The translations under genes were made by a program, and so were the position numbers. The notes beneath the pieces were generated by a model. It saw only the letters and a program-made list of their open reading frames with translations. It did no database searches and was not told the DNA's origin. Positions 2 through 22,307 of a stretch of DNA of 32,403 bases are shown here, piece after piece. Each line of letters begins with the position of its first letter. Position 1 is the first letter of the stretch. The DNA is from Prevotella sp. (lineage in GTDB: Bacteria > Bacteroidota > Bacteroidia > Bacteroidales > Bacteroidaceae), in NCBI GenBank assembly GCA_017642485.1, contig JAGCPC010000117.1:1-32403 (forward strand), in the 5' to 3' direction.

Positions 2-2470
2 CTGCCTGATGACACACGATATGATTTCTACTTATATGACGACACTTACACTTTGATGGGATACATCCAGCAGAAGAGCAGTCCGCACTCTTATGTAGTG
101 GAGGGAAAGAAGGTTGACGTACTGATGGGCATCCGTTTTCCGTGGACAGAGGGCAAATACACCCTCCTTGCCAACATCATCACGCCTGCCAACCATATAG
201 AGCCTGAGAAGATAGAGACCATAAAGGTCAACTTCATAGTGCAGGACTATATGGACATTATAGATGATGAGCTGACGATACACATGATAGATGTGGAGCC
301 ATGCACGGGCATCACCCCCGAAGTGGCGTTGGCTCAGCGACTCAACTACGATGCATCATCCACATGGTGTGGAGAGTTCTTCCAGCGCATAGTAGGCATA
401 AAGCCGCTGAAGCAATGGATCATACGACGCAAGCAGTGGGAGATGGTCGATGGACTGTTGGACGACGGCAAGCCCAACCCCATAGCCTATTGTAACAACT
501 ACCTGCTCACGCTCAAGTCAAGATCCAATTACTACTTGATGCAACTCTCCGTGCACATCAAGATGATAGCCTTCAAGGACTTTGAGGGGACAAGCATAAA
601 CTGCGAACGGCTGTATGACGGCCTTACCCCTGCCGATCCCTACCACCCTCTCAAGGAGATGTTTACCAAGAACGATGCTTCTGACAACCTCCTGATTTCG
701 GCACTGGGTCTTCCACAAAGGAGAAAGGAGATATACTACATATACAACATAGGCATACTCTCCACCCCCAAGGGCAAACCCATACTGAAGGAACTGATGT
801 GGTCGGTCATAGGCAACAACCCCGAACACATCGTAGTCATAGCAGGAACAGAGCAGGAGATAGAAGCCCTCTTTAAGGCAGAGCCCGCACTCCGCGTATA
901 TTTCCCCACGATGGGCAGGGCAGAGACAGGTCCGCTCACCTATCCCGAGATACTGCGCTGTATGCACAGTTGGATAAAGATGAGGGATATGCGTCTCAAC
1001 CGCGCGACGGCCAACGTACTGAAGTGTGACATCAAGAAAGGGTACGAATCAGGCATGGTGCGTGACTGGACGGTAGGCGATATAGAGGACTACGTGGTAA
1101 ACGTACTCAAGCCCCGCTATACCGACCGTGTCTCTGCCGATATGGATGTCAATAGCCTGCTCACACAAACGGATAGCGTACTTGTTGACATTAATGACCT
1201 CGACCGTAGCTACTTCTTAGGAGGCAAAGCGGAAGACTGGGAGGTAAACTTTGAGGAGGATGAAGACCCCCTCCAACTCCCCCCTGCAGGGGGAGAGACA
1301 GAGGATGATGAAGCCTCCTCCGAAGAGAGTGGAGAAGATGAGGTTGACGATGACTTCGAGCGCCTGCTCAATGCTTTCATCAATGACCCTGACTTTGGGA
1401 AAAAGGAAGAAGACTCACCCCTAACCCCTCCCTTGGAGGAAGGGGAACAAAGTGAAAATGTTGATGATACGGATTTCCCTTTGGATGACGATGATGACGA
1501 AGACGGTGATTGTAGCATCTCCCCTCTCTTCAAGAGTGGGGGTGGGGGAGAGTCTGACGACGACGATGATGATGACTTTCCCTCACGCAATCCCAAGATA
1601 AAGTTTCAGGTGCTGCCTCCGCTGCTCCACCCCCAAGAGGAGATGGGCAGACTCGTAGGATGTGATGACATCAAGCAGCGCATAGAGCAGCTTACCATGA
1701 TGTCACGCTACAATCGCATGGTGAAGAAAGCCAACCCCCGTGTTAAGCCCCACGCACTGTCGCTTCACAGCATATTCTTTGGCAGACCAGGCACTGGCAA
1801 GACCACCGTATGCAAGATTATGGGCGGACTGCTCAGGAGGTCGGGAGCACTCAGCATAGGCCATGTGGTGGTGTGCAGCCGTAAGGACTTTGTCGGCACA
1901 CACTGGGGCGACGAAGAGCGTGTGGTGCGCAAGGCTGTCAAGGAGGCACGGGGCGGTGTGCTGATGATCGATGAGGCATACCAGCTCATCAGCGACAATC
2001 CCAACGACCCAGGACGTCTCGTCGTACCCCTGCTCATGGACATCCTCTCCGACGAGTCACAGCGTGACATCGCCATAGTGCTCTGTGGTTACAAGGACGA
2101 GATGAAGCGCCTCATCGACCTCAACCCCGGACTCTATTCCCGTTTTCCCAATGTCTTTGAGTTTAAGGACTTCACCATCGACGAACTCCTCAAGATCACC
2201 GAGCGCCGCGTGAGGGAGTACGGGTATGAGTTTACCCGCGCAGCATGGCGCAAGTACCGTAGCATAGTAGAGGAGGCATACCAGACGCGTGACGCCAACA
2301 CATGGGGCAATGCACGTTTCATAGCCAACCTGCTTGAGAAGATATACCTCAACCATGCCATGCGATGTGTCAGGAAGGGTGAGACAGACCCTCACCGCCT
2401 GCTCCTTATCACCCCTGCCGACGTGCAGCCAATAGAAGTAGCCAAGCCAAAACCCCATATCGGGTTTTGA
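2..2470 (+). CDS. AAA+ ATPase, CbbX/CfxQ-like, with degenerate first AAA-like module (5' partial)
   Basis: The reading frame is open to the left edge, so the N-terminus is missing; TTG 53/ATG 56 are only the first start-like codons inside the window. Counting from 53, the intact ATPase lies at about residues 540-790: Walker A GRPGTGKT (577-584), Walker B with MIDEA (638-642), then CGYKDEM and a helical lid, as in CbbX/CfxQ and ESX EccA-type AAA proteins. Around residues 240-345 a similar stretch (VVIAGTEQEIEALF, then a lid-like helical segment) aligns by eye with the intact copy but has no Walker A or acidic Walker B, so it looks like a dead ATPase module. Residues about 400-535 form an Asp/Glu-rich linker interrupted by three palindromic DNA elements. 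It probably remodels a protein partner using ATP; the partner is unknown. Its last codons form one arm of a terminator. Confidence 0.85.
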   Translation: MPDDTRYDFYLYDDTYTLMGYIQQKSSPHSYVVEGKKVDVLMGIRFPWTEGKYTLLANIITPANHIEPEKIETIKVNFIVQDYMDIIDDELTIHMIDVEPCTGITPEVALAQRLNYDASSTWCGEFFQRIVGIKPLKQWIIRRKQWEMVDGLLDDGKPNPIAYCNNYLLTLKSRSNYYLMQLSVHIKMIAFKDFEGTSINCERLYDGLTPADPYHPLKEMFTKNDASDNLLISALGLPQRRKEIYYIYNIGILSTPKGKPILKELMWSVIGNNPEHIVVIAGTEQEIEALFKAEPALRVYFPTMGRAETGPLTYPEILRCMHSWIKMRDMRLNRATANVLKCDIKKGYESGMVRDWTVGDIEDYVVNVLKPRYTDRVSADMDVNSLLTQTDSVLVDINDLDRSYFLGGKAEDWEVNFEEDEDPLQLPPAGGETEDDEASSEESGEDEVDDDFERLLNAFINDPDFGKKEEDSPLTPPLEEGEQSENVDDTDFPLDDDDDEDGDCSISPLFKSGGGGESDDDDDDDFPSRNPKIKFQVLPPLLHPQEEMGRLVGCDDIKQRIEQLTMMSRYNRMVKKANPRVKPHALSLHSIFFGRPGTGKTTVCKIMGGLLRRSGALSIGHVVVCSRKDFVGTHWGDEERVVRKAVKEARGGVLMIDEAYQLISDNPNDPGRLVVPLLMDILSDESQRDIAIVLCGYKDEMKRLIDLNPGLYSRFPNVFEFKDFTIDELLKITERRVREYGYEFTRAAWRKYRSIVEEAYQTRDANTWGNARFIANLLEKIYLNHAMRCVRKGETDPHRLLLITPADVQPIEVAKPKPHIGF
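1265..1299 (+). repeat. GC-rich palindromic element 1 inside the AAA linker
   Basis: This short run has a perfect palindromic core, CCCCCTGCAGGGGG, flanked by CT/AG pairs. It is translated in frame as DPLQLPPAGGE within the acidic linker. Its Pro/Gly-rich, neutral product contrasts with the Asp/Glu runs on both sides, which suggests an inserted element and not native linker. Confidence 0.6.
1411..1450 (+). repeat. Palindromic element 2 in the AAA linker, shared with feoB
   Basis: These 40 bases match 16221-16260 in feoB at 36 of 40 positions by direct comparison. The element has a C-rich arm and a G-rich arm around TTGG, forming an imperfect hairpin. Here it is read as SPLTPPLEEGEQ; in feoB the same bases are shifted by one and read as RLTPNPSLGERE. 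Confidence 0.75.
1518..1554 (+). repeat. GC-rich palindromic element 3 inside the AAA linker
   Basis: The core pairs CCCC-T-CTCTT with AAGAG-T-GGGG around a single C (1521-1541), with one T/T mismatch. It is translated in frame as SPLFKSGGGGE, between two poly-Asp runs. Confidence 0.6.
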
Positions 2471-2489
2471 CTTGGCTACTGTTTTTTTT
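2439..2489 (+). terminator. Intrinsic terminator overlapping the AAA gene's stop codon
   Basis: A 17-bp stem (2439-2455 with 2462-2478, 16 of 17 pairs matching, 6-nt loop) is followed by CTG and eight T. The TGA stop codon at 2468-2470 lies within the right arm, so the last ten codons of the AAA gene also encode the terminator. Confidence 0.88.
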
Positions 2490-2524
2490 ATAGTTCCTAT
2501 AGTATTTATAGTTACTATAGCCTT
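2489..2524. repeat. Tandem 9-bp repeat TATAGNNNN x4
   Basis: Four consecutive nonamers begin with TATAG (starts at 2489, 2498, 2507, 2516) and differ in their last four bases. The block fills the space between the T-tract of the AAA terminator and the stop codon of the convergent MaoC-like gene. Confidence 0.8.
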
Positions 2525-2982
2525 TAATTAAAATAATAGATAAATATCGCGATACCCTCCAGAGCCTTCTTGCCAGTCTCCTTCACGTTCATCGTAAACT
2601 TTATCTCCGTCTTCACTGCGCCGCGCAGGTTTACTATGCTCTGCAGCGTGGTGGTGAGGTTGAGGCTCTGTCCGCTCAGCACTGGCTGACCGAACTTCAT
2701 CTTGTCTATGCCGTAGTTTACCAGCATCTTCACGTTCTGCACGTCCACTATCTGGTTCCACAGGTAGGGCAGCACTGACAGTGTCAGGTAGCCGTGAGCT
2801 ATCGTAGTGCCAAACTGGCTCTCCGTCTTTGCCCTCTCCGTGTCGATGTGTATCCACTGGTGGTCCAGCGTAGCGTCAGCAAAGAGGTTTATACGCTCCT
2901 GGGTGAGTTGTACGTAGTCTGATGTGCCCAGCACCTTGCCCTCATACTGGGCAAAATCTTCATAACTTGTGATTGTAAGCAT
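2524..2982 (-). CDS. MaoC-like hot-dog dehydratase / (R)-specific enoyl-CoA hydratase family
   Basis: This 152-residue protein has the single hot-dog fold length typical of MaoC/R-hydratases. The hydratase motif is clear: FADATLDHQWIHID around residues 34-47, with the expected catalytic pair Asp40 and His45, followed by AHGYLTLS (62-69). Members hydrate trans-2-enoyl-CoA or related acyl thioesters in the cytoplasm; the exact substrate cannot be told. The gene stands alone, convergent with the AAA gene and divergent from 3129. A TAACTTTG -7 element lies at 3026-3019, and the leader between it and the start codon is almost entirely a 7-bp tandem repeat. The start at 2982 is chosen because the conserved N-terminal region begins there. 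Confidence 0.85.
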   Translation of the reverse strand: MLTITSYEDFAQYEGKVLGTSDYVQLTQERINLFADATLDHQWIHIDTERAKTESQFGTTIAHGYLTLSVLPYLWNQIVDVQNVKMLVNYGIDKMKFGQPVLSGQSLNLTTTLQSIVNLRGAVKTEIKFTMNVKETGKKALEGIAIFIYYFN

Positions 2983-2986
2983 TGTT

Positions 2987-3012
2987 CTTTATACTTTATA
3001 CTTTATACTTTA
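2987..3012 (-). repeat. Tandem 7-bp repeat in the MaoC-like gene leader
   Basis: On the plus strand there are three perfect copies of CTTTATA (2987-3007) plus a partial fourth. Seen from the gene it is an AG-rich leader (GTATAAA units) ending four bases before the ATG. It starts about seven bases after the -7 promoter box, that is, about at the predicted transcription start. Confidence 0.85.
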
Positions 3013-3018
3013 CTTTTG

Positions 3019-3026
3019 CAAAGTTA
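3019..3026 (-). promoter_or_regulatory. Bacteroidetes -7 promoter element for the MaoC-like gene
   Basis: Read on the minus strand this is TAACTTTG, matching the TAnnTTTG consensus. It lies 37 bases upstream of the start codon. No well-spaced -33 TTTG was found. Confidence 0.7.
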
Positions 3027-3041
3027 CAACTTTTTTCCTAA

Positions 3042-3057
3042 TTGTTTGTTCAAACAA
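3042..3057. promoter_or_regulatory. Inverted repeat between two divergent promoters
   Basis: TTGTTTG and CAAACAA form perfect 7-bp arms around TT. The site lies between the minus-strand promoter (3019-3026) and the plus-strand promoter (3069-3076) and contains the likely -33 TTTG (3045-3048) of the latter. It could be an operator serving both directions. Confidence 0.45.
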
Positions 3058-3076
3058 ATAAAAAAACTTAACTTTG
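3045..3076 (+). promoter_or_regulatory. Promoter for the 3129-5177 cluster
   Basis: A -33 TTTG (3045-3048) and a -7 TAACTTTG (3069-3076) are separated by 20 bases, a good Bacteroidetes sigma-ABfr promoter. The predicted start leaves a leader of about 45 nt before ATG 3129. Confidence 0.75.
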
Positions 3077-3128
3077 TCGCCAGAAAGTGATAATATACGC
3101 ATTAACTAACTAAACAATTCACGAAACA

Positions 3129-3734
3129 ATGAATAGGAAAAAAGTTTTTGTGCAGCCCCTTGCCCTTTTTGTATTGATGTTGGCGGCAATGGTGTCTGTC
3201 GCTGACAGTGCCAAAGCAGATGACGGATGCTTCACCGACATGCCTCCAGGAGAAAACGAACCCCTGGATGACCGTCCTTTAATCAATGAGGAGTTTGACG
3301 TCAGTGTGCGCACTTTTGACATGGACAGCCATGACCCAGGTCCTGGATACGAAGTCACCATAGGACTTGACGATAAGATGCTGCAGGTGGTAGAGGGCCG
3401 TGGCTATGACTATCCCAAGGATATGCTGGAGTCATTCGGCATGGTGTGGATGGTCGATGCGGACTTCGACGGACATACCGACGTACTGGTCAGTCTGGGT
3501 ACGGCGCCTGCCAGTGACCAGACCTTCGAACAATATGATGCTTGGTTGTACAATCCTGACGAGGGTAAGTTTCACTATGCGAAGACTTTTCGTGACATCT
3601 ACAACCCCGAGTTTGATGCTAAGGGACATCGCGTGCTGAGTCACTATATAGCACGTGACGGCAAGACAATGGTCTATAGCGCCTACTACTGGCAAAAGGA
3701 CGGAAGCATAAAGGAGGTAGGCAAAACGTGGTAA
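3129..3734 (+). CDS. Periplasmic protein, possibly XAC2610/FG-GAP-like
   Basis: This 201-residue protein begins with a clear Sec signal peptide (RKK, a hydrophobic core, then SVADSAKADD with a probable cut near residue 30). The mature part contains DADFDGHTDVLVS, an Asp-rich calcium-loop-like motif seen in FG-GAP and XAC2610-related periplasmic proteins, and WLYNPDEGKFHYAKTF, again typical of that family. It is likely a small periplasmic beta protein of unknown role. It has a strong promoter upstream, and its stop codon TAA shares one base with the ATG of the next gene, so the two are probably translationally coupled. The family call rests on motif recognition only. Confidence 0.75.
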   Translation: MNRKKVFVQPLALFVLMLAAMVSVADSAKADDGCFTDMPPGENEPLDDRPLINEEFDVSVRTFDMDSHDPGPGYEVTIGLDDKMLQVVEGRGYDYPKDMLESFGMVWMVDADFDGHTDVLVSLGTAPASDQTFEQYDAWLYNPDEGKFHYAKTFRDIYNPEFDAKGHRVLSHYIARDGKTMVYSAYYWQKDGSIKEVGKTW

Positions 3735-3979
3735 TGTTCTTCATCTTTGGTCGCAAGTATAACCCTGGTCTCGTAATAAGCATCCTGCTGAACATACCGT
3801 TGGGAGTCTTTACCATCTGGTACTTCCTCACGAACAGTCTTGTCACCACTGAGGTGAACATCATCAGCATCATGGTCGGCATCATAGCACAGGCCAGTAT
3901 GATGGTTTATGGCTTTGCCTACCTCGTGCCGAAGTCAAAGAAAGAAGGATATCATAAGTCAGTCTGCAATAACAACTAA
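3734..3979 (+). CDS. Small two-helix membrane protein
   Basis: The frame could open at GTG 3728, but ATG 3734 is preferred because it overlaps the upstream stop as TAATG, the usual coupling arrangement. The 81-residue product has two hydrophobic segments (about residues 12-32 and 43-64) joined by a short polar loop, and a basic tail (PKSKKEGYHK) that would lie in the cytoplasm. No family is recognised. Its position between a periplasmic protein and a membrane-bound AraC regulator suggests an accessory role in the same unit, which is inference. Confidence 0.7.
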   Translation: MFFIFGRKYNPGLVISILLNIPLGVFTIWYFLTNSLVTTEVNIISIMVGIIAQASMMVYGFAYLVPKSKKEGYHKSVCNNN

Positions 3980-4001
3980 TGGGGAAGAATCGCACCAACA
4001 A

Positions 4002-5177
4002 ATGGTTGGAATGAGACAATTCGTCAAATATCAGTCGGGGGTAATCTTTTGCCTGTCGCTTACTGCCTGCGTGGTGGTGAGCCTATGGCTGTCGCAGTGG
4101 ATTCCAACCGCTTATTTCGACAATGTCGTAACACCCATACTGGTGGTGTGTACTACGACGGTTGCTCTTGTAGGGGCCTGGCTGATGTTCCGCCACAGCG
4201 ACGGTCTGCGCATTCGCAAGGCATGGGGCAGTACGCTCGTGGTGTGGGCTCTGGCTGATGGGGCTTATCTCGTCTGCTGGGTAGCGGCTCCGCTGTCTGT
4301 GATGAATATGGGTGCCTATCAGCTGACTACTCACGAGCTGCTCATCGGGAACTTACTTGGATGGACGTTGCTGGTTTACCCCACAGAGGCGCTACGCCCG
4401 CAGTGGCTAAACGGCAAACGCGCTCTTTTGCAGTTGGTGCCCATGATTGCACTGGTGGCGCTCGATTATATTCTGCCTGTGAATCTGGCTCCCGTCATTG
4501 CGCTCTACCCCTTCGTGCTGCTTGGACTGCTCATCACGCACGTGCGTGCATATAAAATATGGTGTGAGGAGAACTTTTCAACGCTCGACAATTTCGATGT
4601 GCAATGGATTATGCGCTATCTCATTATGCTCATGCTGGTGGGGTGCATGTACTTGTACCTCTGTCTGAGCCACAGCCACACGCGTGGTTTCACGCAACTA
4701 TGGCTGGTCATTATCATGTTAGCCTATAGCACAGAGAAGATTCTGTTTCAGCGTGACCCATGGAAGATGGTGCTACACACGGACTTGACAGACAGTCAGG
4801 AGAGTTCGGAGGTTCAAGGGGTTACTGGGGAATCTGAAAGCGCCAAGTTCCGTGCTGCGTTGGAGCAATGGATGGAGGCAGGAAAGCCATACTGCAACCC
4901 CGACTTCCGACTGATAGACCTGCAGCAGGTGCTGCCCATGAATCGCACCTACCTCTCGCAGTTCATTCACAGGGAGTATGACTGCACGTTCTACCAGTTT
5001 GTGAACCGCTATCGCATTGAGGAAGCCCAGCGACTGAAGATGAAACAGCCCGATATCAAGCTTGCTGAAATGTCTGTTCGTTGTGGATTCTCATCGCCCA
5101 CCGTCTTCACCCGCACCTTTACCGCTATCGTTGGTGTCACCCCTCGTCAGTGGGCAAAAAAAATCCACTCTGCGTAA
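4002..5177 (+). CDS. Membrane-embedded AraC-family transcriptional regulator
   Basis: The C-terminal 100 residues (about 288-391) carry the two helix-turn-helix motifs of AraC proteins: LIDLQQVLPMNRTYLSQFIH, then RIEEAQRL, IKLAEMSVRCGFSS and FTRTFTAIVGVTPRQW. The N-terminal 280 residues are mostly hydrophobic, with about seven predicted membrane helices, a layout common in Bacteroidetes. It would sense a membrane or periplasmic signal and bind DNA in the cytoplasm. The open frame extends back to 3909, inside the upstream gene; ATG 4002 (or 4011) is preferred because residues before it are polar and overlap that gene, and GGGGAAG lies upstream. The likely target is the adjacent gene at 5311, because a direct repeat sits between them. 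Confidence 0.85.
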   Translation: MVGMRQFVKYQSGVIFCLSLTACVVVSLWLSQWIPTAYFDNVVTPILVVCTTTVALVGAWLMFRHSDGLRIRKAWGSTLVVWALADGAYLVCWVAAPLSVMNMGAYQLTTHELLIGNLLGWTLLVYPTEALRPQWLNGKRALLQLVPMIALVALDYILPVNLAPVIALYPFVLLGLLITHVRAYKIWCEENFSTLDNFDVQWIMRYLIMLMLVGCMYLYLCLSHSHTRGFTQLWLVIIMLAYSTEKILFQRDPWKMVLHTDLTDSQESSEVQGVTGESESAKFRAALEQWMEAGKPYCNPDFRLIDLQQVLPMNRTYLSQFIHREYDCTFYQFVNRYRIEEAQRLKMKQPDIKLAEMSVRCGFSSPTVFTRTFTAIVGVTPRQWAKKIHSA

Positions 5178-5213
5178 AAAACAAGTCTTTTTTTCTTGAT
5201 TTTGCGTAAAAAA
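5171..5213 (+). promoter_or_regulatory. Direct repeat TGCGTAAAAAA x2, candidate AraC operator
   Basis: Two identical 11-mers (5171-5181 and 5203-5213) are spaced by 32 bases, about three helical turns. The first overlaps the stop codon of the regulator gene. Both lie about 50-90 bases upstream of the predicted start of the 5311 transcript, a normal place for AraC-type activator half-sites. Confidence 0.45.
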
Positions 5214-5217
5214 ATCG

Positions 5218-5246
5218 CCTAAGCATTCGTTTAGGTATTTTTTTTT
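5218..5246 (+). terminator. Intrinsic terminator after the AraC regulator
   Basis: CCTAAGC (5218-5224) pairs with GTTTAGG (5229-5235, one G-T pair) around ATTC, followed by TA and nine T. It ends three bases before the -7 box of the next gene. Confidence 0.75.
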
Positions 5247-5248
5247 GT

Positions 5249-5256
5249 TACCTTTG
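5249..5256 (+). promoter_or_regulatory. -7 promoter element for the 1705-residue exported protein gene
   Basis: TACCTTTG matches TAnnTTTG. The predicted leader is about 48 nt and A-rich. No -33 TTTG is seen at the right distance because that stretch is the T-tract of the preceding terminator, which suggests activator dependence. Confidence 0.7.
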
Positions 5257-5310
5257 CAAATAATCTACAATCTATTATAAACAATACTAAAAACCTACAT
5301 ACAACCGACT

Positions 5311-10428: not shown

Positions 10429-10431
10429 GAA

Positions 10432-10520
10432 AGTTCAAGAGTTCAAAGGTTCTTGCGCTCCAGTAGGTGCTCAGGCGAGCAAGCTCGGAGCAAGAGTTCA
10501 AAAGTTAAAAAGTTCAAGAA
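10432..10520 (+). repeat. Structured spacer: 8-bp tandem repeats flanking a hairpin cluster
   Basis: Just after the 5311 gene's stop, GTTCAAGA/GTTCAAAG/GTTCTTGC repeats with period 8 (10433-10456). Just before the next start, GAGTTCAA/AAGTTAAA/AAGTTCAA does so again (10494-10517). Between them lie GCTC-AGGC-GAGC (10469-10480) and an outer pairing of GCTCC (10457-10461) with GGAGC (10487-10491). Confidence 0.65.
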
Positions 10521-10521
10521 T

Positions 10522-12894
10522 ATGAAAAAGATATTATTGACAATTCTCGTGACGGCTTTGACTGCCACAGGCGTTCATGCTCAGGAAGCCCCCGACCCGA
10601 CGGTGTGGGACGGAGAATCGGTATCATCGACGTTGGTTGCTTTTGATGGCACCATCGAAATTTATACCGCTGCCGACCTGGTAGCCCTTCATGCCCTGTG
10701 GGATACGTTTAAGGATGGTGACCAAGGCTATAAAGGCTGGACCATCAAACTGATGAACGACCTCGACATGGATAACCACAACTTCAACGGTCACACCATT
10801 GGATGGAATGACGACAACAAGTTCGGCGGAACATTCGACGGACAAGGGCACATTATCAGAAACCTGAAAATCCATGGAAAAGACAACAATCGTGGACTCT
10901 TCGGCAAGATGGACAACGGAAAAGTGATGAACCTCAAACTGGTGGATGTCGATATCCGCGCCGGCGACGGTGACGACTGTCACATAGGTGCCCTCTGTGG
11001 CAGAATGTACAACCACAGTACCATCACCCACTGTGCCGTGGTGGGAGGAAGTGTGAGAGCGTACGAAAGCGACAACGATGAGTTTGGCGCCATCTGCGGC
11101 TATATGACCAACAACCACAACAGCATAGAATACTGCTATAGCGACATCACCGTGGAGGCCGATGCCCAGGTCGGCGGACTGGTGGGTAAGATAGAGCAGG
11201 GCGATGACAATACCTCGGGCATCTTTCACAGCTACTTCAGCGGAACAGTCATCCACTACGGCGATGATTACTTCGCATCCATTGCCGGTGAGCGTTACAG
11301 TGAGAAACTGCAGAATAATTTCTACCTCTACCGCGATGACGGTGTGAAAGGCACTGGTTGGGATAAAGGCAGCGCCGACCCCAGGGGTGACGAGATTGCG
11401 GCGTGCACGGATGAAGAACTGAAGCAACCCTTCCTGTTCAGTATATATAATGATGAATACACCCTCGAAGGTGATCAGTATATCTACCCCTTCAACGGTT
11501 ATCCCGAACTGAAGGTGTTCCTGCGCTACAACGTGGGCGACAGTTTTTATAATAAGAACATCGGCTACTTGGACAACAATGCCGAAAATGTCGTTGGCGG
11601 TCATGTCAGGATTCTCAACAACGATAATGCCCCATCCTTTAAAGTGTGTCTGGAAAAGACAGCAGGAGGCACAGGCACCGATTTCGCTGTCAGCGAAACC
11701 TCGCAGGCTTATTTCAACGACCAGGTGCAGCTCACCGTGACCGGTCTTGGTCAGAACATCTTCGAGAACCTGGGCGTAGTGAATACTGTCACCATACCTG
11801 CTACTGTCGATTCCATCGCCTATCCGCAGCGCCATCAGGTGCAGAATGCTTTTATCCTCAGTGGTGATGAAGGTGCCGTGAAGGATGGCGCGCTTTACAG
11901 CCTGAAGAACAGATACTTCATCACAGTACCGAAGACATACGAGACGGTGACAGTGCGTGAGGAGTTTGCCGACAAGATTGCTGACTATGCCTTTGAGAAT
12001 ATGAGTGGGCTGAAGACCATTTATATCGATACCTGGGTGCCTGCAGGAACTCTGGTCGATGACGATGAGAATACTCCTACTACCGTTGTACTCGATGGCG
12101 ATAATATCTTCGCTGGATGTCCCGAAGGCCTCGATGTCTTTATCAAAGACGGCACCACCAACCAGCTCTTCCTCGGCTATCAGGGACCTGGCGGATATGG
12201 CTACAGAAATGCAGACAAGTGGAAACTGTTCTACTCCGACTATCAGGATGTTGAGAACCACATGTTCTCTTATTTCCCCATTAACCGCAATCCTGGCGGC
12301 ATGTCAACGCTGATGCTGGGCTACCCTGTCGAGCTGCCTGAAGGAGTAACAGCATGGTGGGCAGGCTCACTAAATGACGGCAAGGTGAAACTGAGGGCGC
12401 TGGGTACGCAGATAGTGCCTGCACTGACTCCCGTACTGCTTGCCTACGAAGGCACCACCGAACCGCTCTATCTCTCCCACTACGAGGGCACTGACCCAGG
12501 TGCTGCTACCGACTATGAGAACAACCTGTTCAAGGGCAGTGTTGACCCAGGAGGTCACACTATGACATCGTCAGAGATGATGAGCAACTTCTTCACCTTG
12601 GGACGTCCCTCTGGCGACACTACCTATGACCATCTGGGATTCTACCGCTTCCGTCCTGCTAACCACATCCTGCCCGCTTACGTGGCGTGGTTGGCTCGTG
12701 AAGACCTGCCATCAAGCAACGGCTTCACCCTGACTTTCGACGACATCCCAACGGCTATTCAGTCTGCACAGCTTTCAACCCTCAACGTTCAACCTTCAAC
12801 TAAAGTATATACTGTGCAGGGTGTGCGCATAGACCCATCGGCTATGCAGGAGGGAACTTTGTATATTGTTAACGGCAAGAAACTAATAAAATGA
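10522..12894 (+). CDS. Exported GLUG-motif / LRR_5 (BspA-like) protein with sorting-like C-terminus
   Basis: The open frame extends back to 10453, but ATG 10522 begins a textbook signal peptide (MKKILLTILVTALTATGVHA) and the upstream codons are the repetitive spacer, so 10522 is chosen (790 residues). Residues about 100-225 contain GLUG-type repeats (FGGTFDGQGHIIRNL, GLFGKMDNG, GALCGRM, GGLVGKI). Around 475-510 is a BspA-like leucine-rich segment (IADYAFENMSGLKTIYI). The end, KVYTVQGVRI then GTLYIVNGKKLIK, resembles a Bacteroidetes C-terminal sorting domain, and the linker just before it is encoded by a 7-bp tandem repeat. It is probably a surface adhesin or binding protein. It shares context with the 5311 protein and overlaps the next small gene. 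Confidence 0.85.
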   Translation: MKKILLTILVTALTATGVHAQEAPDPTVWDGESVSSTLVAFDGTIEIYTAADLVALHALWDTFKDGDQGYKGWTIKLMNDLDMDNHNFNGHTIGWNDDNKFGGTFDGQGHIIRNLKIHGKDNNRGLFGKMDNGKVMNLKLVDVDIRAGDGDDCHIGALCGRMYNHSTITHCAVVGGSVRAYESDNDEFGAICGYMTNNHNSIEYCYSDITVEADAQVGGLVGKIEQGDDNTSGIFHSYFSGTVIHYGDDYFASIAGERYSEKLQNNFYLYRDDGVKGTGWDKGSADPRGDEIAACTDEELKQPFLFSIYNDEYTLEGDQYIYPFNGYPELKVFLRYNVGDSFYNKNIGYLDNNAENVVGGHVRILNNDNAPSFKVCLEKTAGGTGTDFAVSETSQAYFNDQVQLTVTGLGQNIFENLGVVNTVTIPATVDSIAYPQRHQVQNAFILSGDEGAVKDGALYSLKNRYFITVPKTYETVTVREEFADKIADYAFENMSGLKTIYIDTWVPAGTLVDDDENTPTTVVLDGDNIFAGCPEGLDVFIKDGTTNQLFLGYQGPGGYGYRNADKWKLFYSDYQDVENHMFSYFPINRNPGGMSTLMLGYPVELPEGVTAWWAGSLNDGKVKLRALGTQIVPALTPVLLAYEGTTEPLYLSHYEGTDPGAATDYENNLFKGSVDPGGHTMTSSEMMSNFFTLGRPSGDTTYDHLGFYRFRPANHILPAYVAWLAREDLPSSNGFTLTFDDIPTAIQSAQLSTLNVQPSTKVYTVQGVRIDPSAMQEGTLYIVNGKKLIK
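12773..12800 (+). repeat. Tandem 7-bp repeat (NNTCAAC x4) inside coding sequence
   Basis: TTTCAAC, CCTCAAC, GTTCAAC and CTTCAAC follow each other exactly. They encode LSTLNVQPST, the linker between the body and the C-terminal sorting region of the GLUG/LRR protein. Confidence 0.8.
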
Positions 12895-13031
12895 TGAAGA
12901 AACATTATATCACTCCCATAGTGAGGGTGGTTGCCTTGCCCCGCATGGCACTGCTCGATTATACCTCAGGTGAGCCGACGCCTCCTGAGGTGCCCTACGA
13001 TCCAGAAATAGAAACAGGTGAATCATTCTAA
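12891..13031 (+). CDS. Small peptide gene coupled to the GLUG/LRR gene
   Basis: ATG 12891 overlaps the upstream TGA as ATGA. The 46 codons begin MMKKHYITPIVRVVALPRMA and end in a Pro/Glu/Asp-rich acidic tail (GEPTPPEVPYDPEIETGESF). The N-terminal half is basic and moderately hydrophobic and the C-terminal half strongly acidic. Short proteins of this form (MKK-Y-P-V-V followed by a polar tail) are often seen in Bacteroidales genomes, but I know no function for them. The overlap and ordered charge pattern argue that it is translated; it could be an accessory peptide of the upstream surface protein. Confidence 0.55.
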   Translation: MMKKHYITPIVRVVALPRMALLDYTSGEPTPPEVPYDPEIETGESF

Positions 13032-13037
13032 CATCTT

Positions 13038-14360
13038 ATGGCAACACTACTTATCATACTGCAACTGCTGATAGTTTTGGCGATGATATTCATCGGCGCC
13101 AAGGTGGGAGGCATTGCCCTGGGCATGTATGGCATGGTGGGTGTGCTGGTGCTGGTGTTTGTCTTCGGACTGGAACCAGGAGTCATTCCTGTCGATGTGA
13201 TGCTCATCATTGTCAGCGTCATCACTGCCTCGGCATCGCTGCAGGCTGCTGGTGGACTGGACTATATGGTGAACGTGGCAGCACGCTTTCTCAAGAAGCA
13301 TCCCAGTCGCATCACTTTCTATGCTCCTTTGGTAACATGGGGCTTCACCCTGTTGGCTGGCACTGCCCACACCTGTTACGCTCTGCTCCCTATCATAGCC
13401 GAGATAGCACGTAAGGAGAAGGTGCGTCCTGAACGCCCACTTAGCATAGCCACCATAGCGGCATCATTAGGGTGCTCGGGTTCGCCAGTGTCAGCAGCTA
13501 CTGCTGCCATCCTCTCCACCTCGCTGTTGGGTGCCAAGGGCATAGGTATGAGAGAGATTATGATGGTCACTATCCCTGCATCGCTCATCGCCATACTGGT
13601 GGCATCGTTGGTGCAGAACTATGTGGGCAAGCCTCTGGAGCAAGACCCTGAATACCAGCGTCGACTGCGTGATGGACTGCTTGAGGACGATGCTGCTGCT
13701 ACTGAGGAGAAGGCTGTCAATCCGCGTGCCAAATGGGCTGTGCTGGTATTCCTGCTGGGTGTGCTGATGATAGTGCTCTTTGGCATCTTCCTCGGACTGC
13801 GCCCTTCCTTCGACGATGAACCGATGGAGATGAATGCCATCATCGAGATACTCATGATGAGCATAGCAGCCCTGATACTATGGGTGGGCAAGGCTGATGT
13901 GCGTCATGCTATGGGTGGCAATGTGTTTGCTTCTGGCATGAACGCCATGGTGTCCATCTTCGGAGTGGCATGGATGGGTAGCACATTCTTCGAGGCTAAC
14001 CGCGAAACCATAATAGACAGCGTTGAGGGTGTCTTCACCTCGTATCCGTTGCTCTTCGCCATACCCCTCTTTCTGTTCAGCATCATGCTCTTCTCACAGG
14101 CGGCAACAGCTAAGACGCTCTATCCCGTAGGACTGGTGATGGGTGTATCGCCCATGATGTTGCTGGTGCTCTTCCCAGCAGTGAATGGCTACTTCTTCCT
14201 GCCTAACTACCCTACCTCAGTGGCTGCCATAGGTTTCGACCGCACTGGCACCACCCGCATTGGTAAGTATGTGGTGAACCACTCCTTCATGCTACCTGGT
14301 TTCATCACCACCTTCGTCAGCATCGGAGTGGGGTACCTTATAGCTTCGCTAATCCCTTAA
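13038..14360 (+). CDS. dcuB: Anaerobic C4-dicarboxylate transporter, Dcu family
   Basis: The product is 440 residues, the usual length for DcuA/DcuB, with 10-12 hydrophobic helices and the characteristic conserved segments GGLDYMVNVAARFLKKHPSR, LAGTAHTCYALLPIIAEIA, SLGCSGSPVSAATAAI and FLPNYPTSVAAIGFDRTGTT. It sits in the inner membrane and exchanges or takes up aspartate, fumarate, malate and succinate under anaerobiosis. The next gene makes fumarate from aspartate, so aspartate in/succinate out exchange feeding fumarate reductase is the likely job. It starts six bases after the small peptide gene, so it may be co-transcribed with it. DcuA and DcuB cannot be separated from sequence reading alone. 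Confidence 0.9.
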   Translation: MATLLIILQLLIVLAMIFIGAKVGGIALGMYGMVGVLVLVFVFGLEPGVIPVDVMLIIVSVITASASLQAAGGLDYMVNVAARFLKKHPSRITFYAPLVTWGFTLLAGTAHTCYALLPIIAEIARKEKVRPERPLSIATIAASLGCSGSPVSAATAAILSTSLLGAKGIGMREIMMVTIPASLIAILVASLVQNYVGKPLEQDPEYQRRLRDGLLEDDAAATEEKAVNPRAKWAVLVFLLGVLMIVLFGIFLGLRPSFDDEPMEMNAIIEILMMSIAALILWVGKADVRHAMGGNVFASGMNAMVSIFGVAWMGSTFFEANRETIIDSVEGVFTSYPLLFAIPLFLFSIMLFSQAATAKTLYPVGLVMGVSPMMLLVLFPAVNGYFFLPNYPTSVAAIGFDRTGTTRIGKYVVNHSFMLPGFITTFVSIGVGYLIASLIP

Positions 14361-14379
14361 CGGGAACGATAATATAGTA

Positions 14380-14462
14380 GCCGAAGGCGTATCGTAGCAA
14401 CGAAGTTGCGTATCGTAGTGGCAAAGCCACGTATCGTAGCAATCTTCAGATTGCGTTTCGTA
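14380..14462 (+). repeat. Array of four hairpins separated by an 8-nt spacer GTATCGTA
   Basis: Between dcuB and aspA the pattern is: GCC-GAA-GGC (14380-14388), spacer, GCAAC-GAA-GTTGC (14397-14409), spacer, GTGGC-AAA-GCCAC (14418-14430), spacer, GCAATCT-TC-AGATTGC (14439-14454), spacer. The first three spacers are identical (14389-14396, 14410-14417, 14431-14438) and the last is GTTTCGTA. Stem sequences differ but each is perfectly self-complementary. Confidence 0.85.
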
Positions 14463-14494
14463 CGAATAAAACAACGTTTTAAAAGTTAACAACT

Positions 14495-15904
14495 ATGAAC
14501 GAACAGAAATTCAGACTGGAGTCCGACCTCTTAGGCGAACTCAAAGTGCCTGCCGACGCACTTTATGGCGTACAGACACAGCGTGGTATCAACAACTATC
14601 ACATCTCACGCAAGACGATGTCCATGTACCACGAGTTTATCAAATCCATAGCCTACGTGAAACTGGCTGCAGTACAAACCAACCACACACTCGGAGTCAT
14701 CAACGACGAGATCTATGAAGCTATTTCGCAGGCTTGTCAGGAGATAATCGACGGCAAATGGCGCGAGCACTTCCCCATCGACATGGTGCAGGGTGGAGCA
14801 GGCACCAGCGTCAATATGAATGCCAACGAGGTGATAGCCAATCGTGCCCTCGAGATTATGGGCCATGAGAAGGGCGACTACCAGTACTGTCTGCCTAACG
14901 ACCACTGCAACTGCGGACAGTCCACCAACGATGTCTATCCCACCACCATTCGTCTTGCCGTCATCCGCTACAACAAGAAACTCGTAGGTGCCCTCACAGG
15001 CCTCATCAGTGCCTTCCGCTATAAGGGTGACGAGTTCAAAGACTGCATCAAGATGGGTCGCACACAGCTGCAGGATGCAGTGCCTATGACCAGCGGACAG
15101 GAGTTTAATGCCTATGCCAACAATCTGGAGGAGGAGATATCCAACCTGGAGCGCAACGTCAAACTGATGCTCGAAATCAATATGGGTGGCACAGCCATCG
15201 GCACAGGACTGAATGCCGTACCAGGCTTCGCCAAACTATGTGCTGCCAACCTCTCAAAACTCACTGGCGAGGCATTCGTCTCAGCTTCCGACCTCGTTGA
15301 GGCTACCCCTGACACTGGTGCCTACGTCAGCTATTCCAGCGCGCTGAAGCGACTGGCTGTGAAACTCTCCAAGATATGTAACGACCTCCGACTCATGGCT
15401 TCTGGTCCACGTTGCGGACTCAACGAGATAAACCTTCCTCCGAAGGCTCCTGGCTCATCCATCATGCCTGGCAAGGTGAACCCCGTCATCCCTGAGGTAG
15501 TCAATCAGGTATGCTTCAAGGTCATTGGCAACGACACCACCATCAGCTTCGCCGCTGAGGCAGGACAGCTACAGCTCAACGTTATGGAACCCATCATCAC
15601 CGAGTCACTCTTCGAGAGTCTTATCTGGCTCAAGAAAGCCATCGAGACCCTCACTCAGGAGTGCATACTCGGCATCACGGTCAATAAGGAGCGCAACCTC
15701 GCTATGGTCAAGAACTCCATCGGCATCGTCACTGCCCTCAACCCCTACATAGGCTACAAAACCTCTACCAAGGTGGCTAAGGAGGCTCTCGAAACCAACC
15801 GCTCCGTTTATGACATAGTTCTCGAACAGGGACTGATGACTCAAGAGAAACTTGACGAGGCTCTCGACCCCTCCATGATGCTTGCCAGTCATCCTCAGTT
15901 TTAG
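14495..15904 (+). CDS. aspA: Aspartate ammonia-lyase (aspartase)
   Basis: The protein is 469 residues, the full length of bacterial aspartases. It converts L-aspartate to fumarate and ammonia in the cytoplasm. The superfamily signature GSSIMPGKVNP, which includes the catalytic Ser of the mobile loop, lies at residues 320-330. Other conserved parts are GGAGTSVNMNANEVIANRALE, PNDHCNCGQSTNDVYPT and GRTQLQDAVPMT, which fit aspartase better than fumarase C. It follows the Dcu transporter; no TAnnTTTG box is seen in the gap, so it may be read from the dcuB transcript through the hairpin array. A strong terminator follows. Confidence 0.95.
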   Translation: MNEQKFRLESDLLGELKVPADALYGVQTQRGINNYHISRKTMSMYHEFIKSIAYVKLAAVQTNHTLGVINDEIYEAISQACQEIIDGKWREHFPIDMVQGGAGTSVNMNANEVIANRALEIMGHEKGDYQYCLPNDHCNCGQSTNDVYPTTIRLAVIRYNKKLVGALTGLISAFRYKGDEFKDCIKMGRTQLQDAVPMTSGQEFNAYANNLEEEISNLERNVKLMLEINMGGTAIGTGLNAVPGFAKLCAANLSKLTGEAFVSASDLVEATPDTGAYVSYSSALKRLAVKLSKICNDLRLMASGPRCGLNEINLPPKAPGSSIMPGKVNPVIPEVVNQVCFKVIGNDTTISFAAEAGQLQLNVMEPIITESLFESLIWLKKAIETLTQECILGITVNKERNLAMVKNSIGIVTALNPYIGYKTSTKVAKEALETNRSVYDIVLEQGLMTQEKLDEALDPSMMLASHPQF

Positions 15905-15926
15905 GTATTTTATTGCTTATATATAT

Positions 15927-15956
15927 AAAAAAGGTGGTAGCGGTGCCACCTTTTTT
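15927..15956 (+). terminator. Intrinsic terminator after aspA
   Basis: AAAAAAGGTGG (15927-15937) pairs with CCACCTTTTTT (15946-15956) around an 8-nt loop. The A/T symmetry means it could work in both directions. Confidence 0.88.
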
Positions 15957-15968
15957 GATTATTTTTTG

Positions 15969-15976
15969 TATTTTTG
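15969..15976 (+). promoter_or_regulatory. -7 promoter element for feoAB
   Basis: TATTTTTG matches TAnnTTTG and lies 22 bases before ATG 15999. The predicted leader is very short. An AAGGA ribosome binding site precedes the start. Confidence 0.6.
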
Positions 15977-15998
15977 CATCCGCAAAAATAAATAAGGA

Positions 15999-18407
15999 AT
16001 GAAACTTTCAGAATTGGAAATAGGACAGACAGCCACCATAACGAGTGTGGGTGGCAAGGGAGCGTTGCGTCAGCATTTTCTTGATATGGGTGTGATACCA
16101 GGTGCTGAGGTGACGCTTAACAAGTATGCTCCGCTGGGCGACCCTATGCAGTTTGAGATACATGGCTACGCCCTGACACTGCGCAAGGATGATGCGAAGA
16201 AGATAGAAGCCTCTCTCCAAAGACTCACCCCTAACCCCTCTCTTGGAGAGAGGGAAACAAAAACCATAGAAGTTTCGGCTGGAGGTGAGTCTTTTCACCC
16301 TGGACTGGGTGAGGGTGGTCGTTATCATGACTCAAAGCATGAGCACCCCCTGCCTGAAGGCACTAAGCTGACATTCGCCCTCGCTGGCAATCAAAATAGC
16401 GGTAAAACCACGCTTTTCAACCAACTGACAGGTGCCAACCAGCATGTGGGCAATTTCCCTGGTGTGACGGTTGACCGTAAGAGTGGCAGCATTCGTGGAC
16501 GTTCAAATACTGAGGTTACCGACCTGCCAGGCATATACAGTCTGTCGCCTTACAGTGCGGAGGAGATAGTCAGTCGTGACTTTATACTTGGGGTAGAGAA
16601 ACCTCAAACCTCAAACCTCAAACCTCAAACCTCAAATCCTCCAAAGGGTATCATAAACATTGTCGATGCTACGAACATAGAGCGTAACCTATACCTGACC
16701 ATGCAACTCATGGAACTGGGCGTACCGATGGTGCTCGCCCTGAACATGATGGACGAGATGGAGGGCAACGGTGGTACGGTACATGTGAATGAGATGGAGA
16801 GTTTGTTGGGCATACCTGTGGTGCCTATTACAGCAAACAAGAATCATGGTGTTGACGAGTTGATAGAACACGCTATGCACGTGGCTAAATATCAAGAGAA
16901 ACCAGCAAGACAGGACTTCTGCAGTCCGGAAGACCATGGTGGTGCTGTTCACCGTTGTCTGCATGCCATCATGCACTTGGTGGAGGATCATGCAGAGCAT
17001 GCAGGAATGCCACTGCGATTTGTTGCGGCCAAGATAGCTGAGGGCGACAGCATAATAGCCGACAGTCTGGGACTATCACAAAACGAGAAAGAGACCATAG
17101 AGCACATACTCCGACAGATGGAGGAGGAACGCGGTATGGACCGTGCTGCTGCTATGGCTGATATGAGGTATAGTTTTATTAAGAAACTATGCAGCCAGAC
17201 GGTGGTAAAGCCAAGTCACAGCAAGGAGGCTCTCCGTTCGCAACGTATAGATAAGGTGCTCACAGGCAAGTGGACCGCCTTGCCAGCCTTTGCGCTGATA
17301 ATGGCATTCATATTCTGGGTAACGTTCGACATACTCGGAGGCACCATGCAGGAGTGGCTTGAGGAAGCGATAGACTGGTTTACGGGCATAAGCGATGAGG
17401 CCCTGCAGTCATGGGATATCAACGACTCGGTACGCTCGCTCATCATCGATGGTGTGTATGCTGGTGTGGGGTCTGTGGCTACCTTTGTTCCTATCATCGT
17501 GATATTATTCTTCTTCCTCAGTATGCTGGAGGACTCAGGTTATATGGCTCGCATAGCATTTGTAATGGACAAATCGCTGCGTAGGCTCGGACTGTCAGGA
17601 CGTTCCATCGTACCACTGCTGATGGGTTTTGGATGTTCGGTGCCGGCAGTGATGTCGAGTCGCACACTGCCATCAGAGCGTGACCGCAGACTGACCATCA
17701 TGCTTACCCCCTTCATGTCATGTACTGCAAAACTGCCTATCTATGCCTTTCTCGCCGCAGCATTCTTTCCTCATGACGGTGCGCTGGTGATGTGTGCCAT
17801 GTACCTGCTTGGCATCGTCATAGGCATAATGGTGGCATTGGTGCTGAAGCGCACAGTGTTTAAGGGCGAGGCAGTGCCTTTCGTCATGGAGTTGCCTAAC
17901 TACCGTATGCCAGGTATGCGCAATACGTTGCGACTGCTATGGGACAAGGCGCGTGACTTCCTGCAGAGGGCGTTTACGGTGATATTCTGCGCTACGATAG
18001 TGATATGGTTCTTGCAGAGCTTCTCATTCAGTCTCAATATGGTGGAAGACCAGTCAGAGAGTATGTTAGGACACATGGCATCAATAGTGGCACCAATATT
18101 CCAACCTTTAGGATTCAACGACTGGCGTGTGGCAACAGCCCTCGTGGGTGGTTTCCTTGCCAAGGAGAGTGTGGTGAGCACGATAGAGGTACTATTCGGT
18201 GGAGTGGCTCTGACTGATGTGATATCAGCAGCGGCAGCATTCTCGCTCATGGTATTCTGTCTGCTATACACCCCATGTGCTGCAGCCATAGCATCGATAC
18301 GTCGCGAACTTGGCAACCGTGATGCCCTGACGGTGGTGACGGGACAATGCGTGATAGCCTACGTAGTGGCGCTGATAATATATCAGCTTATACAGCTTGT
18401 TCAGTAA
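15999..18407 (+). CDS. feoB: Ferrous iron transporter, FeoA-FeoB fusion
   Basis: Residues 1-75 are a FeoA SH3-like domain (LRQHFLDMGVIPGAEVTLNKYAPLGDP). The GTPase has G1 GNQNSGKT (130-137), G3 DLPG (175-178) and G4 NMMD (249-252). The membrane part has the FeoB gate motifs GFGCSVPAVMSSRTL and PFMSCTAKLPIY. It imports Fe(II) across the inner membrane, and such fusions are normal in Bacteroidales. Two things are odd. The FeoA-FeoB linker (about 76-120) contains two palindromic DNA elements, one shared with the AAA gene. Between G3 and G4 the usual EKPDVIVN-like loop is replaced by EKPQTSNLKPQTSNPPKG, encoded by a perfect 7-bp tandem repeat. Because 7 is not a multiple of 3, a change in copy number would break the frame. 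As written the frame is intact. Confidence 0.95.
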   Translation: MKLSELEIGQTATITSVGGKGALRQHFLDMGVIPGAEVTLNKYAPLGDPMQFEIHGYALTLRKDDAKKIEASLQRLTPNPSLGERETKTIEVSAGGESFHPGLGEGGRYHDSKHEHPLPEGTKLTFALAGNQNSGKTTLFNQLTGANQHVGNFPGVTVDRKSGSIRGRSNTEVTDLPGIYSLSPYSAEEIVSRDFILGVEKPQTSNLKPQTSNPPKGIINIVDATNIERNLYLTMQLMELGVPMVLALNMMDEMEGNGGTVHVNEMESLLGIPVVPITANKNHGVDELIEHAMHVAKYQEKPARQDFCSPEDHGGAVHRCLHAIMHLVEDHAEHAGMPLRFVAAKIAEGDSIIADSLGLSQNEKETIEHILRQMEEERGMDRAAAMADMRYSFIKKLCSQTVVKPSHSKEALRSQRIDKVLTGKWTALPAFALIMAFIFWVTFDILGGTMQEWLEEAIDWFTGISDEALQSWDINDSVRSLIIDGVYAGVGSVATFVPIIVILFFFLSMLEDSGYMARIAFVMDKSLRRLGLSGRSIVPLLMGFGCSVPAVMSSRTLPSERDRRLTIMLTPFMSCTAKLPIYAFLAAAFFPHDGALVMCAMYLLGIVIGIMVALVLKRTVFKGEAVPFVMELPNYRMPGMRNTLRLLWDKARDFLQRAFTVIFCATIVIWFLQSFSFSLNMVEDQSESMLGHMASIVAPIFQPLGFNDWRVATALVGGFLAKESVVSTIEVLFGGVALTDVISAAAAFSLMVFCLLYTPCAAAIASIRRELGNRDALTVVTGQCVIAYVVALIIYQLIQLVQ
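16221..16260 (+). repeat. Palindromic element in the FeoA-FeoB linker
   Basis: CCCTCTCT (16236-16243) pairs perfectly with AGAGAGGG (16247-16254) around TGG. The 40-bp element matches 1411-1450 at 36 of 40 positions but is translated in a different frame (RLTPNPSLGERE). Confidence 0.78.
16281..16320 (+). repeat. Second hairpin element in the FeoA-FeoB linker
   Basis: TCACCC (16295-16300) pairs with GGGTGA (16307-16312) around TGGACT, within a stretch translated as GGESFHPGLGEGG. It lies 20 bases after the first element and may be a second insertion or part of a composite one. Confidence 0.5.
16601..16635 (+). repeat. Tandem 7-bp repeat ACCTCAA x5 inside feoB
   Basis: Five perfect heptamers lie in the G-domain coding region between G3 and G4. 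Three units (21 nt) encode one KPQTSNL peptide repeat. This is a simple-sequence repeat of the kind that can change length by slippage. Confidence 0.9.
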
Positions 18408-18484: not shown

Positions 18485-18515
18485 AGAGGTCATCAAGATG
18501 CATCAGCGAAGCTAA

Positions 18516-18543
18516 CTGTGAATTGTGAACTGTGAATTGTGAA
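18516..18543 (+). repeat. Tandem 7-bp repeat YTGTGAA x4
   Basis: CTGTGAA and TTGTGAA alternate twice. The block ends five bases before the TTG start of the FeoB-associated gene and occupies its ribosome-binding region. Confidence 0.85.
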
Positions 18544-18548
18544 CTGAA

Positions 18549-18689
18549 TTGAACCTTCAATCCTACATATTACTGGCTATAGTGGTAGTAGCCTTTACCC
18601 TTGTGCTCCGCTACATACATCGTGGTGGAGGGAAGAGAGACTGCTGTAAGGGGTGCGATGGTAGCGACTGCAACTGTTGCAATCGTTAA
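18549..18689 (+). CDS. FeoB-associated Cys-rich membrane protein
   Basis: A 46-residue product has one N-terminal membrane helix (about SYILLAIVVVAFTLVLRYI) and a Cys-rich tail: CCKGC then CNCCN, six cysteines in 13 residues. This is the layout of the FeoB-associated Cys-rich membrane proteins found just after feoB in many Firmicutes and Bacteroidetes. They are thought to help FeoB-mediated Fe(II) transport, perhaps as a metal ligand (FeoC-like role); the mechanism is not settled. The only start in the frame after the upstream stop codon is TTG 18549, so start choice is forced. It is separated from feoB by a strong terminator, and a 7-bp tandem repeat fills its leader. Confidence 0.82.
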   Translation: MNLQSYILLAIVVVAFTLVLRYIHRGGGKRDCCKGCDGSDCNCCNR

Positions 18690-22275: not shown

Positions 22276-22307
22276 GATTGAAAATTGAAGATTGAGAATT
22301 GAGAATT
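22276..22307 (+). repeat. Tandem 7-bp repeat RATTGAR x4-5
   Basis: Units GATTGAA, AATTGAA, GATTGAG, AATTGAG run directly on from the lipoprotein's stop codon (22273-22275) and the next partial unit AATTATG contains the start codon of the following gene. Confidence 0.85.

Follow-up and report, generated by a model that had tools for sequence, protein, structure and literature searches.

In-frame mobile palindromes are best known from Rickettsia. The Rickettsia palindromic elements (RPEs) are 105–146 bp long, palindromic and inserted in frame into unrelated conserved genes (PMC2229807, PMC10969869), and one RPE-bearing enzyme, gmk, has been reported to be both translated and active (PMC2229807). 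Other small mobile repeats, Correia/NEMIS and ERIC/RU, are described as fused in frame to genes (PMC2229807, PMC2759123). Here, we describe a palindromic repeat family of the Prevotella group from two copies in a Prevotella sp. contig (JAGCPC010000117.1 of assembly GCA_017642485.1), whose 32,403 nucleotides are the window below. The in-frame insertion in unrelated conserved genes, judged from sequence alone, is RPE-like. The likeness is by description only, and the Prevotella family differs in that it belongs to another phylum, uses five frames, has apparently single arms in genes and is largely extragenic in other congeners.

The family shares its form with repetitive extragenic palindromes (REPs) and their doublets (REPINs, or bacterial interspersed mosaic elements): the units are short hairpins arranged mostly as inverted doublets, the copy number is uneven, some copies are internal to open reading frames (ORFs) and a gene sometimes has two inserts. 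Most REPs are intergenic, intragenic REPs of the GTAG and CGTC superfamilies are described, and CGTC repeats are listed in Bacteroidetes (PMC3733652). The units of these superfamilies carry an unpaired GTAG or CGTC tag, whereas the Prevotella unit ends in AG[AC]CTCACC instead (the commonest end in an alignment of 53 units). Flanking of the REP-associated tyrosine transposase (RAYT) gene by the same units is given as a feature of GTAG REPs and not of CGTC REPs (PMC3733652, Table 1); no RAYT gene in the loci scanned here could be tied to our element in this way. We use the label REPIN-like, and not membership of either superfamily, because the end tag is absent and no linked RAYT was found.

Other relatives are more distant in host or setting. 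The 107-bp Correia form has open frames and is often genic, and the stop-rich 155-bp form is almost only intergenic (PMC2229807, PMC2759123), a contrast that parallels the one between lineages of the Prevotella element. Correia and ERIC, of different hosts, have target duplications and TA ends in the table of PMC2229807, neither of which was seen here. BrickBuilt of Porphyromonas gingivalis, a miniature inverted-repeat transposable element (MITE), is a small Bacteroidales repeat too but is annotated among intergenic repeats (PMC5771137); it is likened by description only. 'Atypical secondary structures' are reported beside the subclass 2.6 transposase genes of Bacteroidetes (PMC6006769), and the Prevotella family, set beside them by description only, may overlap with them. 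In the open-access literature, we found no account of an intragenic, multi-frame palindrome family of Prevotella or Bacteroidales.

We are fairly confident that the repeat is a mobile, non-autonomous element built from two hairpin units in opposite orientation, which makes it a Prevotella-group doublet of REPIN-like type that tolerates genes and is read in multiple frames. We see it dispersed, paired in inverted orientation, nearly identical in unrelated genes, missing from some orthologues, shared at the same place by others, and open in five of the six frames.

The starting pair, window 1411–1450 and 16221–16260, is identical at 36 of 40 positions, a value given by the first-pass annotation and reproduced by recomputation. 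A repeat finder ranked the same pair first among the direct repeats of the window (42 nt, 90%), and about 7e-9 such pairs are expected by chance in a random 32-kb window of uniform bases. The annotated one-base offset between the codon registers and the two peptides were also recovered, and neither gene is interrupted, as both ORFs are open. The features are as follows.

53..2470, + strand: host gene 1, 805 amino acids (aa), with C-terminal AAA ATPase (PF00004, aa 574–704) and AAA lid (PF17866, aa 730–791) domains.
1411..1555, + strand: complete REP-like doublet in the AAA gene, 145 bp, AGACTC...GAGTCT, reading DSPLTPPLEEGEQ...CSISPLFKSGGGGES.
1411..1450, + strand: AAA left arm, a hairpin unit starting AGACTCACCCC; frame fwd2, codons GAC TCA CCC, reading DSPLTPPLEEGEQ.
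1519..1555, − strand: AAA right arm, an inverted unit of like kind, more than one mismatch away from the search pattern.
15999..18407, + strand: host gene 2, a FeoA-FeoB fusion (FeoAB) of 802 aa, with FeoA at aa 1–70 and FeoB_N at aa 125–291.
16221..16260, + strand: FeoAB left arm, intact, in the FeoA-FeoB linker; frame fwd0, codons AGA CTC ACC, reading RLTPNPSLGERET.
16284..16292, − strand: GGTGAGTCT, the outer end of the decayed FeoAB right arm, pairing with the left end in the predicted fold.
16296..16331, + strand: native FeoB codons HPGLGEGGRYHD, directly after the element and not part of it, conserved in element-free orthologues.

The complete AAA doublet sits in an acidic linker. For FeoAB, we infer the inserted stretch to be 16221–16292. 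The palindrome-like string CACCCTGGACTGGGTGAGGGTGG from 16296 on was considered as the second FeoAB arm and rejected, being the native HPGLGEGGRYHD that orthologues keep.

The first-pass annotation took the repeat for a single 40-nt palindromic element. The unit is palindromic indeed, but it comes in inverted pairs, and either 40-mer is a single arm of such a pair. The unit reads approximately AG[AC]CTCACCCCYNNCCCCTCTC-loop-GAGAGGGGA over about 36 nt, and two inverted units with a short centre make the doublet. In the 53-unit alignment, each arm holds a foldable hairpin, CCCCTCTC-loop-GAGAGGGG. An 8-bp stem rule is satisfied by 158 of 191 distinct units and by 1560 of 3820 shuffled controls; the controls also pass often, so the hairpin signal is partly one of composition. 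Pairs in inverted orientation occur on host contigs C10, C63, C72, C106 and C168, and apparently single arms are common in genes, such as those for RsgA, MnmA, the DEAD helicase and the RNA methyltransferase.

The window pair is not alone in its genome (G000; 2.09 Mb, 78.9% complete); the annotation had named a lack of further copies as a ground against its reading. The pattern CTCACCCCTAACCCCTC with up to three mismatches gives 28 matches against 5 for the reversed control, and CTCACCCCYNNCCCCTCTC with up to one mismatch gives 17 against 1. At the latter threshold, G083 has 68 matches (42 exact, and about 15 heptamer arrays counted by eye), G096 48, G121 21 and G008 12, with none in any of their controls. 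Up to two mismatches, 127 of 150 same-genus genomes have a match, although many also match the reversed control and the counts are inflated by (CTCACCC)n heptamer arrays in G166 and G019, probably also in G003 and G026, which have high controls. The pattern is matched at low copy elsewhere in Bacteroidota. Over 247 Bacteroidota genomes, 43 have a match with up to one mismatch and 13 have a reversed-control match. Three doublets of G083, located in the genes for a MatE transporter, a DUF2027-Smr protein and GMP synthase, are identical at 105–110 of 117 bases. Such identity across unrelated genes implies recent movement.

The same bases are not a fixed part of the two window genes, so the annotation's other ground against its reading, their presence in orthologues of both, does not apply either. 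Among the seven next-closest FeoAB orthologues, six are without the element, as judged on the protein alignment. The seventh, in the sister species G008, has a strongly diverged arm pair at the same linker; Prevotellaceae bacterium UBA4332 contains the entire FeoAB sequence of G008. In the G008 orthologue of the AAA protein (61% identical), the doublet is missing and the linker is acidic as in the host. Separately, the FeoA-FeoB linker of Prevotella sp. RGIG5162 (L249, 5001–7367) has CCGCTCCCACTGGAGGGTGGGGAGGG, reading PLPLEGGEG, perhaps a further arm that has diverged in this linker.

Other insertions are common to the two species. MutS2 and MnmA have inserts at the same position in the host and G008, with length differences that preserve the frame, and the first arm in MetH is common to both, in frame. 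More copies lie within the G008 MetH and within another G008 protein, presumably glutamyl-tRNA-synthetase-like.

The annotation compared the repeat with RPEs as a dispersed palindrome read in several frames, and this comparison held. The genic host units use four frames (fwd0 4, fwd2 4, rev2 4 and rev1 2), and 52 genic units over seven genomes use five (fwd0 19, rev2 14, rev1 10, fwd2 7 and fwd1 2). The frame rev0 is open in 0 of 17 host, 1 of 50 G083 and 1 of 74 other units, because the conserved GGTGAG gives TGA. The frame fwd1 is open in only 8 of 17 host units, with TAA in CCCCTAAC, versus 49 of 50 G083 units, so its rarity in G083 is not caused by stops in the arm. The element codons appear, by prediction, to be translated as extra amino acids in up to five frames.

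The frames bear on the view that the genic arms are low-complexity coding linkers, converged or gene-converted, and not mobile insertions. Both window copies are in linkers, and the AAA linker is acidic in both species, as this view would have it. It is nonetheless hardly credible. One genome alone reads these nucleotides in four frames, and the genomes together use five, so what is conserved is DNA and not peptide. Moreover, the insert in the G083 glycyl-radical enzyme makes a clean gap of 35 residues against a solved homologue, where residues 479 and 515 match 607 and 609.

A unit was counted as genic if its ORF had 250 codons or more and extended for 30 or more on either side of it, a rule that misses shorter genes. 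By this count, 14 of 17 host units are genic, in 12 ORFs, versus 0.71 for random positions in the same loci, which are centred on elements, so the expected share is not genome-wide. Genes are therefore not avoided in the host. The annotation's proposal that the element tolerates or targets coding sequence stands as to tolerance, but targeting is not supported.

All 12 host ORFs have a Pfam family above cut-off. By Pfam or solved-structure matches, they encode the AAA protein, FeoAB, an SSF symporter, a DEAD/DbpA helicase, a sulfatase-domain protein, a PD-(D/E)XK nuclease, MutS2 (MutS_V and Smr), MnmA, RsgA, MetH, an RNA (uracil-5-) methyltransferase and a CHC2 zinc-finger protein. The RsgA insert breaks the GTPase domain, with an 11-residue gap versus two solved homologues, and the MnmA insert is inside the HUP domain match (aa 38–253). 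In the remaining ten, the arm is outside the best Pfam stretch. Host RsgA and MnmA (L012) have simple in-frame repeats as well, NHNDNHNLNHNENE and NLNLNLNLN, besides the palindromic arm.

In G083, the genic units are in 16 ORFs, 13 with Pfam families above cut-off, one below (L162) and two with none (L139 and L152). CarA is split between aa 75 and 114, GMP synthase has its insert a few residues upstream of QFHPEV, and GltB carries copies inside its enzyme domains. The annotation placed both elements in linkers between folded domains, which is right for AAA and FeoAB and fails for the family. From these alignments, linkers are evidently not required for insertion, as some inserts are placed within enzyme domains.

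Gene tolerance depends on the lineage. Five other same-genus genomes together have only 8 genic copies in 74 examined (G156 1/17, G169 0/9, G016 1/8, G148 3/18 and G101 3/22) against controls of 0.48–0.76, a strong avoidance. REPs are mostly outside genes; the Prevotella family is alike in these five and opposite in the host and G083. In all genomes other than the host, the counts cover part of the copies, drawn from listed places. The small samples of G121 and G096 are genic in 4 of 6 and 4 of 7, so both look gene-tolerant. G008 has 8 of 10, including L244 and L245, which were fetched via a protein query matching inserts; its six pattern-chosen loci give 4 of 6.

The contrast persists in a recount meant to exclude heptamer arrays (51 of 81 versus 8 of 74 genic). 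That recount was too loose, since it removed 6 of 17 distinct host units (8 occurrences) and left 9 of 11 genic, so the count of 14 of 17 is kept. G019 changed from 3 of 6 to 0 of 3 genic after the exclusion and no inference is drawn from it, and G166 yielded no usable unit.

The few ORF-internal copies in the five genomes, as reported for most REPs, agree with a regulatory role of the element in genes, as a functional host signal such as a terminator or a supercoiling or mRNA site. We consider this improbable. The copy number is patchy, from none in, for example, G024 (up to two mismatches) to 42 exact in G083, and the carrier genes are unrelated.

The doublet length appears to be under selection in at least one species. 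In G083, 13 of 14 genic doublets, including all nine that share a 111-nt core, are divisible by three in length, versus 2 of 7 non-genic ones (Fisher p 0.006); the copies compared are partly non-independent, several sharing a recent ancestor. The ORF rule does not force this length on genic doublets. We hold it as support for the frame being kept by selection. Elsewhere, lengths of both kinds are found. The host symporter doublet has a core of 147, a multiple of three, while the cores of 139 (AAA), 118 (C63 nuclease), 118 (G008 MutS2) and 100 (another G008 protein, which we take to be ABC-F) are all 1 mod 3 and share the reading.

Alternatively, the insert might be removed after transcription or bypassed in translation, intron-like, so that the proteins are normal. 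Insertions inside domains of core enzymes (the glycyl-radical enzyme, CarA, GltB and RsgA) and the strong predicted hairpins would suit such removal. It is very doubtful, as the G083 genic lengths would be needless if the insert were removed, and no Rfam family matched in the five loci searched. The stop-free genic copies are built into the ORF rule and count little against it.

Several results weigh against the REPIN-like explanation. The ORF rule just mentioned is itself part of the reason why frames are open across the element. G083 has 30 of 50 units genic versus a control of 0.77, which is mild gene avoidance. Host doublet cores vary from 118 to 192 and their centres differ. No target duplication is evident with flanks judged by eye, the empty sites being too diverged for exact junctions. 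No match to PF01797 was found in the host genome at its present completeness, and a 513-aa ORF on C133 weakly matches a RAYT protein (58 residues, 33%, E 4e-6). No transposase was tied to the element in scans of RAYT loci. Among 57 RAYT-like loci, some overlapping, of which 27 were scanned at up to three mismatches (6 of 20 and 21 of 21 of two sets) and 30 of 30 at up to two, clear flanking CTCACCCC arms were found only at L183, which is the same as L190; L172 and L187 have one 3-mismatch match each.

At L183 (G062), CTCACCCC arms stand on both sides of a RAYT-like ORF as part of a 72-nt inverted repeat. This gene was considered as the cognate enzyme and rejected, as its own repeat GCGGACGG... 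also flanks the 76% homologue in G002, where CTCACCCC units are lacking. A RAYT-like gene with its own GCGGACGGCCACAAGGGCCGC-type repeat is thus in two genomes, at L183 (G062) and L191 (G002), and two other members of the L183 subfamily, L182 and L189, have a TGTAGGGGC palindrome instead. L183/L191 and L182/L189 represent separate Prevotella REP families with candidate transposases.

The lack of a RAYT association in the loci scanned also suits a rival to the REPIN mobilised by Y1 (RAYT), namely a MITE of a DDE-type insertion sequence whose terminal repeats would be the two arms. The inverted termini of about 36 nt, the total of about 106–198 bp in the host and G008 and the non-autonomous nature are all MITE-like. 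Yet each of the arms forms a hairpin of its own, many arms apparently stand singly and the target duplication is not evident by eye, which make a MITE an unlikely contender.

The mode of insertion adds to the points against the REPIN-like explanation. Three cases have native codons as the centre between two inverted arms, one in MetH and two in GltB. In host MetH (L014), 28 bracketed codons align with a solved methionine synthase and the arm-free G001 orthologue, and in G083 GltB (L165), arms enclose 24 native codons at one place and 35 at another. The bracketing arms retain part of the inner element sequence, with the native codons in the centre position. One-piece insertion of all pairs was rejected for MetH and GltB, whose centres align with homologue sequence. 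The first MetH arm brings a net gain of only 2–4 residues versus homologues, so it may have replaced native codons. The centre of the C63 nuclease pair (L007) is not placeable against orthologues. In-frame bracketing of native codons is unexplained by any insertion mode known to us.

On the REPIN-like explanation, copies would spread through a single-stranded intermediate made by an enzyme in trans (RAYT, Y1 or a relative) and would land in genes about as often as genes occur. Their survival would require an unbroken frame and a protein able to accommodate an additional loop, about 12 (one arm) to 51 (doublet) residues long. Gene tolerance would be possible since five of the six unit frames can be stop-free and, for at least one species, doublet lengths are divisible by three. 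Selection would then keep the length in genes and let intergenic copies drift. We also put forward, only tentatively, a bolder proposal. Some lineages of the Prevotella group may have turned an extragenic REP doublet into a mobile peptide module compatible with genes, thanks to a length divisible by three and five stop-free frames, and core enzymes would be remodelled by it from within time and again. It could also be inserted as two half-elements bracketing 24–35 native codons (MetH, and GltB twice), a paired mode that known REPIN movement does not explain.

Other observations concern FeoAB and its neighbourhood. An (AAACCTC)6 heptamer array at window 16599–16641 is within the FeoB_N match, reads KPQTSNLKPQTSN in frame and is missing from the G008 orthologue; it could act as a switch, because a change in unit number would shift the frame. 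Further heptamer arrays in the window are at 12774–12800, 18514–18551, 22277–22307 and 22395–22425. The first of these is translated within the C-terminal region of a protein (QLSTLNVQPST), and the last two are an inverted pair around the start of ORF 22299–23156. The FeoAB protein is 62–67% identical to records labelled Lachnospiraceae or other Clostridia versus about 34–43% to FeoB of most same-genus genomes searched. This nearness to Clostridia suggests that FeoAB (15999–18407) was acquired by horizontal transfer.

Rickettsia-like behaviour is now met in Prevotella-like bacteria, whose named relatives are largely from animal guts. The congeners that keep the family mostly out of genes are a natural comparison for what makes the element gene-tolerant. 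Predicted proteins may carry SLTPxPSPxGEGS or SPLSxRGxGGES stretches that are mobile DNA and not domains. Such mobile stretches affect alignments, structure models and domain or antigen prediction.

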